From: Halobacteriales archaeon QS_4_70_19
Lineage (GTDB): Archaea; Halobacteriota; Halobacteria; Halobacteriales; Haloarculaceae
Reading direction: 5' to 3'
Assembly: GCA_003020985.1 (NCBI GenBank)
Contig: PXRM01000040.1
Location: forward strand, 1 to 64,000
DNA length: 64,000 nucleotides
The position numbers and the translations under genes are program-made. The notes beneath the pieces are model-generated. The model did not search any database, was not told the origin of the DNA, and worked only from the letters and a program-made list of their open reading frames with translations. Of the stretch, positions 27,937 to 35,856 are shown piece by piece (positions within the stretch are counted from its first letter, which is position 1; each line of letters opens with the position of its first letter).

Positions 27937-28011
27937 GGGGCCTTAGCTCAGCTCGGACAGAGTGCGTGGCTTCGGACCACGTTGCCGGGGGTTCAAATCC
28001 CTCAGGCCTCG
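27937..28011 (+). tRNA. tRNA-Arg (anticodon TCG)
   Basis: A complete cloverleaf: acceptor GGGGCCT with AGGCCTC, D-arm GCTC/GAGT, anticodon stem CGTGG/CCACG with loop CTTCGGA (anticodon TCG, reading CGA), T-arm GGGGG/CCCTC with loop TTCAAAT, discriminator G. No CCA is encoded and there is no intron. Confidence 0.95.
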
Positions 28012-28340
28012 CTTCTCGCGAACGAACGTGAGCGAGAGCGACGGCCAGGAATTTGAATCAGGGAGGACGCGCGCAGCGGAGCGAGCACGTCCGACTGTGG
28101 TTCAAATCCCTCAGGCCTCGTGAACCCGCCGAGCGACAACGAGGCGTAGTGAACATCCCTGTAGATTCGAACCCCGAGAGACGAGCGTAGCGAGTCTCTC
28201 TCCGGTTCAAATCCCTCAGGCCTCGCTTCTGCGACCGAACGTGAGCGAGAGCGACGGCCATGGCCATGGGATTTGAATCAGGGAGGACGCGCGCAGCGAA
28301 GCGAGCACGTCCGACTGTGGTTCAAATCCCTCAGGCCTCG
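28012..28340 (+). repeat. Three hairpin units each ending in a copy of the tRNA-Arg 3' end
   Basis: The last 22 bases of the tRNA (27990-28011) recur identically at 28099-28120, 28204-28225 and 28319-28340. Each copy is preceded by an inverted T-arm (28048-28059, 28164-28173, 28268-28279) and an inner stem (GGACG...CGTCC or GAGAGAC...GTCTCTC), so each unit can fold as a hairpin. The spacer CTTCTGCGACCGAACGTGAG also repeats. No integrase gene is near. These could be attachment-site scars or a small palindromic mobile unit. Confidence 0.85.
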
Positions 28341-28519
28341 CTTCTGCGACCGAGGTCGTCGGCGGAAGTATCTTCAGAAAGACGAACTCGTTCCGGATAT
28401 GTCCGCACTGATTTATTAGGTCGAAGAATTGCACGCCGTTCGATATATTTACCGAGTTATCGTAAACGTCTGACGAGTACGGGAGGCTCCTCGTGAGACG
28501 GGAGCGACGGACGGGTGAC
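28341..28519. other. AT-richer intergenic stretch
   Basis: After the last tRNA-tail copy there is another start of the CTTCTGCGACCGA spacer, then about 120 bp of AT-rich sequence (TTTATTAGG, GATATATTTACC) with no open frame I can support. It may carry terminators for the minus-strand gene ending at 28520. Confidence 0.35.
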
Positions 28520-35649: not shown

Positions 35650-35723
35650 GGGCTGATAGCTCAGCCAGGCAGAGCGTCTGGCTCTTAACCAGACGGTCGA
35701 GGGTTCAAATCCCTCTCAGCCCG
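35650..35723 (+). tRNA. tRNA-Lys (anticodon CTT)
   Basis: Complete cloverleaf: acceptor GGGCTGA/TCAGCCC, D-arm GCTC/GAGC, anticodon stem TCTGG/CCAGA with loop CTCTTAA (anticodon CTT, reading AAG), T-arm GAGGG/CCCTC with loop TTCAAAT, discriminator G. No intron, no encoded CCA. Confidence 0.95.
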
Positions 35724-35856
35724 TGATTCTGCGACGAGCGAACGTGAGGGGCGAATCACGGCCTGCAGCGGGATCTGAACCCGGAGAGCCGCTGCCCGCG
35801 AAGGCCGGAGGCCGAGCAGAAACGTCTCTCACCCGGTTCGAATCCCTCTCGGACCG
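35724..35856 (+). repeat. Degenerate tRNA-Lys tail hairpin unit
   Basis: A copy of the tRNA 3' end with three mismatches lies at 35835-35856. It is preceded by an inverted T-arm (GGGATCTGAACC, 35770-35781) and a GAGAG...CTCTC stem. The spacer after the tRNA (TTCTGCGACGAGCGAACGTG) matches the spacer used at the tRNA-Arg locus, so the two loci carry the same kind of unit. Confidence 0.75.

Follow-up and report, generated by a model that had tools for sequence, protein, structure and literature searches.

The nearest published kind of repeat that we found in the literature searched is SMR-A of Haloquadratum walsbyi, an element of about 110 bp whose inverted repeats are unrelated to known transposons, which inserts into palindromes and whose mobilisation its authors call enigmatic (PMC3119063). 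The units described here resemble SMR-A in being about 110 bp long, gene-less and haloarchaeal, and in their prominent inverted repeats. They differ from it, however, in their target: SMR-A targets near-terminal palindromes of the IS605-type/PATE kind and leaves no target duplication, whereas the units target tRNA tails, which are duplicated in standard units. Each unit also combines the local tail in inverted and in direct orientation, and the units, which occur across a whole order, diverge too far from one another to form one sequence family.

A second point of comparison is offered by the tRNA att sites of archaeal tyrosine integrases (SNJ2, pNOB8 and HF1-like elements; PMC8371274, PMC7230728), at which the tRNA 3' end is likewise duplicated and strands are known to be exchanged at a tRNA loop. 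In contrast to these, the units have neither integrase nor cargo, their tails lie mostly 60-130 bp apart, each contains an inverted tail and two hairpins, and similar modules are found at several tRNAs. Integron attC and CTXphi attP are folded single-strand att sites in which two inverted core copies pair into a hairpin. The units share with them the two inverted core copies, conservation of structure over sequence, asymmetric unpaired bases (judged by eye in the units) and the lack of a recombinase in the mobile piece, but they target the tRNA T-arm, carry no gene cassette, have no dedicated integrase that we could find, and are archaeal. REP/RAYT hairpins and MITEs are short palindromic non-coding repeats present in many copies, all of which holds for the units too; the units differ in lying at tRNA 3' ends and in having tRNA-specific arms. 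We found no description of these units in the open-licence literature that was searched.

The locus under study lies in a window of 64,000 nucleotides (the whole stretch of DNA analysed) from Halobacteriales archaeon QS_4_70_19, in which three units follow an intact tRNA-Arg(TCG) gene (Table 1). The true end of this gene is 28011, the 28012 reported by ARAGORN having one base too many, and its 22-base tail, GGTTCAAATCCCTCAGGCCTCG, is repeated exactly in each of the three units. An inverted T-arm (AATTTGAATC at 28050, GATTCGAACC at 28164 and GATTTGAATC at 28270) and an inner stem stand ahead of every tail copy. The original prediction, made from the sequence alone, had claimed three identical 22-base tail copies behind tRNA-Arg, each preceded by an inverted T-arm and an inner stem, and both claims held, the first exactly and the second in all three units. 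Its further claim of a spacer common to all units failed in part, the shared spacer (CTTCTCGCGAACGAACGTGAG and CTTCTGCGACCGAACGTGAG) being found in units 1 and 3 only. Unit 3 is close to a copy of unit 1, with 97% identity over 73 bases; unit 2 begins with TGAACCCGCCGAGCG, unlike the other two, and its inner stem is also different. Behind the last tail there is just CTTCTGCGACCGAGG. No open reading frame of 80 or more amino acids overlaps the array (28012-28340), and an Rfam scan placed the tRNA alone, and no other family, above a gathering score. The folding z-scores of units 1, 2 and 3 as RNA are -4.7, -2.3 and -3.2, and 0, 3 and 2 of 200 dinucleotide shuffles, respectively, folded equally well.

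Table 1. Unit-bearing tRNA genes of the window and the parts of their units
Feature	Position	Strand	Details
tRNA-Arg(TCG), intact host gene	27937-28011	+	ARAGORN and Rfam RF00005; duplicated tail is tRNA positions 52-73 (27990-28011)
Unit 1	28012-28120	+	HP1 hairpin 28012-28038; inverted tail ~28040-28059; inner stem 28060-28098 (A type); tail copy 28099-28120
Unit 2	28121-28225	+	Different HP1 28121-28154; inverted arm 28158-28173; inner stem 28174-28203 (B type); tail copy 28204-28225
Unit 3	28226-28340	+	HP1 28226-28251; inverted arm 28262-28279; inner stem 28280-28318; tail copy 28319-28340
15 bases after last tail	28341-28355	+	First 13 match unit 3 HP1; HP1 remnant or native tRNA flank
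tRNA-Lys(CTT), second unit-bearing tRNA of the window	35650-35723	+	
Older, decayed unit at tRNA-Lys	35724-35856	+	HP1 35724-35758; inverted arm 35768-35781; inner part 35782-35834; tail copy 35835-35856

A strict pattern of inverted T-arm, 15-45 bases and T-arm matched at only two tRNA loci of the same genome, tRNA-Arg(TCG) and tRNA-Leu-TAG (contig C16), and the reversed pattern, used as a control across that genome, gave no match; we therefore exclude a chance origin of the array. The assembly comprises 46 contigs with 36 RF00005 tRNA matches, 30 of which had flanks and were used for an unbiased tally of tail copies. A first tail copy within 220 bp downstream, with no more than 3 mismatches in 20 bases, was present at 8 of these 30 loci: Arg-TCG, Lys-CTT, Val-TAC, Arg-CCG, Tyr-GTA, Leu-TAA, Leu-CAA and Leu-TAG. 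The tail copy at tRNA-Lys has 3 mismatches against the tail of its own tRNA, and the remaining two tRNAs of the window have no unit or tail copy within 1.4 kb. At two of the eight loci, Tyr and Leu-CAA, the hairpins lie within a longer partial tRNA copy. We observed by eye that the second, partial copies behind tRNA-Leu-CAA (contig C10, L034) and tRNA-Tyr (contig C26, L022) are each split by two hairpins at the T-loop or a few bases before it, with a few repeated bases at the ends.

Beyond this genome, the hairpin pattern is present in 65 of 76 genomes of the family and, in a sample of the phylum, in 49 of 294 genomes, made up of 49 of the 53 within the order and none of the 241 outside it; the reversed-pattern controls of both searches were zero in the rows shown. 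A search of the genome collection with the more specific A-type pattern returned at least 120 stretches; the 120 analysed contain 127 hits, and the 80 titles inspected were all haloarchaeal except for one metagenome-assembled genome titled only Euryarchaeota. A tRNA on the same strand lay upstream of 112 of the 127 hits, always within 600 bp and within 160 bp for 89 of them; among the 15 hits without a tRNA, 8 lay no more than 190 bases from the start of their stretch. The A-type hits span 29 isoacceptors, and 79 of the 112 assigned to a tRNA have an exact tail copy. Over positions 62-73 (12 bases), the A-type tail copies average 0.73 mismatches against their own tRNA vs 6.05 against the other tRNAs of the set, and this comparison shows that the units are tRNA-specific. 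The flanks of the A-type pattern (AATCAGGGA...GACCGT) recur at all 29 isoacceptors and are not derived from the tRNA.

A unit begins with the HP1 hairpin, continues with the tRNA tail in inverted orientation and the inner hairpin, and closes with a direct copy of tRNA positions 52-73, such that the tRNA remains intact and gains an array of tail, hairpin and tail; most units measure 80-150 bp. The proportions that follow come from a mixed set that is biased toward pattern hits, most of its loci having been fetched by pattern, and from which viral-contig loci were excluded. The spacing from tail to tail in this set is 30-160 bp in 98 of 109 copies and 60-129 bp in 88 of 109, and an inverted T-arm with at most 2 mismatches is present in 86 of the 98 short inserts and absent from 12. 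Averages at the boundaries were taken over 86 units, leaving out 11 of the 97 distinct short units for having more than 3 tail mismatches. At the left edge of the duplication, identity to the tRNA is at chance at position 51 (0.29 vs 0.24), 0.91 at position 52 and 0.98 at position 53; at the right edge it is 0.93 at position 73, falls to 0.65 vs 0.45 at the next base, and stays slightly above the shuffled level to +8. The average boundaries of the duplication are hence sharp at 52 and 73, and because identity sets in at position 52, the left edge coincides with the 5' edge of the T-loop. A loop of 7 bases between the two halves of the T-stem is, by analogy, how the core site of a tyrosine recombinase is laid out.

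The local tRNA is reflected in the inverted arm as well. Base 57 of the tail copy is matched by its inverted arm in 65 of 69 units, and, taken position by position, the arm is complementary to its own tail above the shuffled level no further than about position 63. In a gapped comparison, the outer part of the arm prefers the complement of its own tail (mean rank 0.644, Wilcoxon p 1.4e-4, n=79), vs 0.496 for control regions and 0.490 in the direct orientation. The match of both the inverted and the direct arms to the local tRNA is thus shown by comparison.

The original prediction proposed a comparison of unit number between close relatives, and we find that both copy number and presence vary between sister species. 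Two such species (G004 and G074) have 45 tRNA genes each, giving 90 of 90 tRNA hits that could be paired by isoacceptor, and an unbiased tally found tail copies at 9 of 45 and 7 of 45 loci. Four differences of presence or absence were considered, and alignment left one clean empty site, at tRNA-Ile-GAT, which has a unit in G004 and none in G074; decayed remains or truncated tails are present at Arg-CCT, Cys and Phe. At Arg-TCG the two species differ by an exact tandem step of 1 vs 2 units, at Leu-TAG by 1 vs 3 units with flanks that are 88-92% identical, and at Gly-TCC by 1 vs 2 tail copies. These differences do not separate gain from loss. Within the genus of QS_4_70_19, the units behind Arg-TCG run A, B, A in the present genome, while G033 (L074) has only a B unit, a close relative of unit 2; at Arg-CCG there is an A followed by a B in G045 and an A alone here, and G057 has an integrated element of about 7.5 kb ahead of the A unit. 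In G004 (L103), 1433 bp behind tRNA-Leu-TAG, we also observed a gene, acyltransferase-like as judged by eye, between a unit and a further, decayed tail; this tail has part of the same inner hairpin, as if the gene had been caught between two units.

The sharp boundaries suggest a first rival explanation, that of target duplication, in which an enzyme making staggered cuts (Cas1 or casposase-like) inserts a hairpin element at the tRNA 3' end. Positions 52-73 would then be a duplicated target of 22 bp, and the array would grow from the tRNA as a CRISPR array grows from its leader. In favour of this reading, both ends of the duplication are sharp on average in a set spanning up to 29 tRNA types, and it accounts for the tail being the local one. 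The polarity of the arrays is also consistent with it: of 19 arrays compared, 10 have a last tail that has diverged more than the first, 8 have equal divergence and 1 has less. Against it stand the insertions in partial tRNA copies, which lack such a duplication, and the inverted tail, which it leaves unexplained, and we consider target duplication unlikely.

Similar inserts occur at different tRNAs. The top similarity score between inserts at different tRNAs is 119 within a genus and 95 between genera, against a maximum of 25 in 1500 shuffled pairs. The shuffles are mononucleotide shuffles, which preserve composition only, and loci without a noted genome (L069 and most integrase loci) were pooled as one genus. 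Scores of 60 or more are reached at different tRNAs by 4.1% of 534 same-genus and 1.5% of 3868 other-genus pairs, and at the same tRNA by 53% of 45 same-genus and 4.5% of 155 other-genus pairs. On these figures, units are mostly inherited at their tRNA and only sometimes occur at another. A nearly identical unit is present at two Val isoacceptors in G063, and the units at Leu-TAA (L043) and Glu-CTC (L102) have almost identical inner hairpins with different HP1s, so that the two modules reassort. Modules are common to different tRNAs and genera, but of 95 distinct A-type inner sequences no more than 2 recur at more than one tRNA type.

It could be argued that no mobile element is involved, and that the tail is copied, first inverted and then direct, by fold-back synthesis and slippage where the T-arm breaks, giving GC-rich hairpin repeats that drift. 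The inverted arm does resemble the local tail, HP1 also pairs by eye with the left flank in partial tRNA copies, and tandem differences can be exact, all of which would fit. This explanation is nonetheless very unlikely in our view, as the likeness of HP1 and inner modules between tRNAs and between genera goes well beyond the maximum of the mononucleotide shuffles, if in part through GAGCGAAGCGAG-like motifs, and the A-type flanks found at 29 isoacceptors do not come from the tRNA.

The hairpin itself is conserved more in structure than in sequence. Covariation was assessed in the inner part of 13 bases of 30 distinct A-type hairpins. Both sides of the inner stem have changed in 5 of 5 pairs, with 26 doubly changed cells vs 5.7 in shuffles, and 96.7% of cells are paired vs 76.8% in shuffles, all slid registers being far lower. 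The shuffles ignore relatedness between the sequences, and the flanks are fixed by the search pattern. The inner stem covaries, and the imperfect palindrome is kept in structure more than in sequence. A C(GNA)G triloop occupies the centre of the longer inner parts in 0.47 of 59 A-type units vs 0.11 of shuffles, and in 0.64 of 61 mixed units vs 0.09. In three inner types the inner loop seems by eye to be one base longer on its 3' side than on its 5' side, which we have not counted.

A covarying stem would also be expected of a functional RNA, for instance a structured 3' trailer, released by processing, with a role in regulating or shielding the maturation of the tRNA, and in the assigned cases the units do lie directly behind the tRNA on its strand. 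Units are present, however, at only about a sixth to a quarter of the tRNAs in the three tallies given above, and at partly different tRNAs in each species; Rfam recognises no family above its gathering score other than the tRNA; and the triloops are of the GNA type, which is especially stable in DNA. We regard this reading as very unlikely.

Genes for tyrosine integrases are common in the order, and two families were followed, both matching PF00589, the first of them below the cut-off. Of 146 genomes from the order, 67 have the first, and at 29 of 30 loci it follows a tRNA at a distance of no more than about 400 bp. Judged by pattern and by eye over the 190 bases behind the tRNA, 28 of the 30 loci have no unit, and in the two that do (L123 and L128) the unit, with its own tail copy, sits exactly between the end of the tRNA and the arm of the integrase element. 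The possibility that the unit is a part of integrase elements of the L102 type is ruled out by these 28 loci and by the position of the unit in the other two. At L102 itself (G041, contig C14), an integrase element of 4.8 kb behind tRNA-Glu has the same unit at attL and attR; the integrase of this tRNA-Glu type forms a convergent pair with a second, diverged copy in several genomes (e.g. G360, G273, G414 and G442). The second family is found in 119 of the 146 genomes; at 14 of 30 loci a T-arm lies no more than 400 bases from the 5' end of the integrase, and a few of these have a hairpin there (L246, L253, L256 and L261). At the attR sites L253 and L261, a partial tRNA copy is interrupted by two hairpins immediately 5' of position 52, and its tail is not duplicated. 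Derivation of the unit by deletion from elements of the L070 type was also considered and is unsupported, the hairpin being found at only some attR sites. In QS_4_70_19 an integrase gene interrupted by a single in-frame TGA (C25:49352-50350, L272), likely a decayed element, follows tRNA-Val-CAC at a distance of about 4.5 kb. No recombinase could be tied to the units.

A distant DNA search of phage and plasmid collections, with the tRNA and array as query, gave matches confined to the tRNA part of the query, and thus no unit on any phage or plasmid record. Among 24 stretches of viral contigs, one haloarchaeal-looking contig has a unit (L078) and seven prophage contigs have an analogous att hairpin; the other 16 were set aside by eye as chance or unrelated palindromes. 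The seven (L085, L088, L089, L090, L092, L098 and L101), which we take to be of Bifidobacterium origin, show an inverted T-arm, an inner stem and a tRNA-like tail (e.g. CATGGTTCAAATCCATGCCCCGC) adjoining the 5' end of a tyrosine integrase, laid out as in the haloarchaeal units. We regard these prophage hairpins as an independent case of the unit layout at an att site.

Another rival is that of ordinary att scars, in which each tail copy is the attR of a virus or plasmid that has since been deleted and the hairpins are remnants of its arms; the original prediction had noted that such tails usually mark integration scars of this kind. In its favour, tyrosine-integrase genes of both families are widespread, the att copies of such elements are pieces of tRNA 3' ends, the tRNA 3' end is directly repeated in the units, and an inverted T-arm hairpin is evidently possible at prophage att sites. 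Against it, the spacing of the tails is narrow and 86 of the 98 short inserts have an inverted arm (in a set biased by pattern, as noted), most inserts (the 88 of 109) are too short for an integrase gene, with no element body between the repeats, similar inner modules occur at different tRNAs, and the units of L123 and L128 exactly fill the space that separates the tRNA from the integrase element's arm. The boundaries are also sharp at 52 and 73 on average, while att sites reported from archaea vary in length from 8 to over 100 bp (PMC8371274). Att scars would account for the tails; they leave the narrow range of unit lengths, the inverted tail and the sharing of modules unexplained, and for these reasons we hold that they are insufficient on their own to explain the array, and unlikely.

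The original prediction would have been refuted had the units been confined to this one tRNA and a matching integrase been found elsewhere in the genome. That condition is not fulfilled: tail copies are present at 8 of 30 tRNA loci and the pattern is order-wide. One tRNA-targeting integrase family also has no unit at 28 of 30 loci. The idea that tRNA tails are built upon by a small mobile unit of palindromic form is supported, with movement inferred from comparison and never observed; the reading is limited in that most similarity is found at the same tRNA within a genus and that no enzyme has been identified.

We propose, with a probability of roughly 0.45, that the units are a family of gene-less, palindromic repeats specific to tRNA tails, which would spread rarely and expand in tandem, with a tyrosine recombinase acting in trans as the likeliest route; both spread and mechanism are inferred. 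Under this proposal the units would spread as non-autonomous elements. Their inverted and direct tails would pair in single-stranded DNA to form a folded att site, a tyrosine recombinase of the host or of another element, as yet unidentified, would act in trans on the T-arm, and tandem growth may follow from recombination between the identical 22-bp tails. We prefer this folded-att mechanism because of the boundary at the T-loop, the paired arms that follow the local tRNA, the conservation of structure over sequence and the analogue in prophages. Its weakness is that a simple integrase-type insertion would bring the tail of the donor, so that jumps to a different tRNA are hard to explain. A local tail after spread between tRNAs is better explained by a target duplication of fixed length, which fails in turn for the insertions without duplication. 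The modest similarity across tRNAs, the many integrase loci without a unit, and the hairpin pairs placed in the T-stems of some partial copies without tail duplication also count against the preferred mechanism, as do the lack of a recombinase tied to the units, the 12 short inserts without an inverted arm and the limited reach of the arm's complementarity.

A bolder and less probable reading of the same units is possible, namely that they belong to an unrecognised site-specific system of haloarchaea, in which tiny elements that fold as single strands may integrate at the tRNA T-loop, rebuild the local tail at each insertion and spread from tRNA to tRNA through a recombinase acting in trans, as an archaeal counterpart of integron attC.

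tRNA genes are classic landing sites of mobile DNA, and a gene-less repeat that carries the local tRNA tail in both orientations does not fit any of the known mobile repeats with which we compared it. For searches that use tRNA genes to find integrated elements, the units can be misleading, as apparent attR copies can be units. They bear on the interplay of integrase elements, tRNA tails and palindromic repeats, and since they are common in a genetically tractable group, their movement is directly testable.
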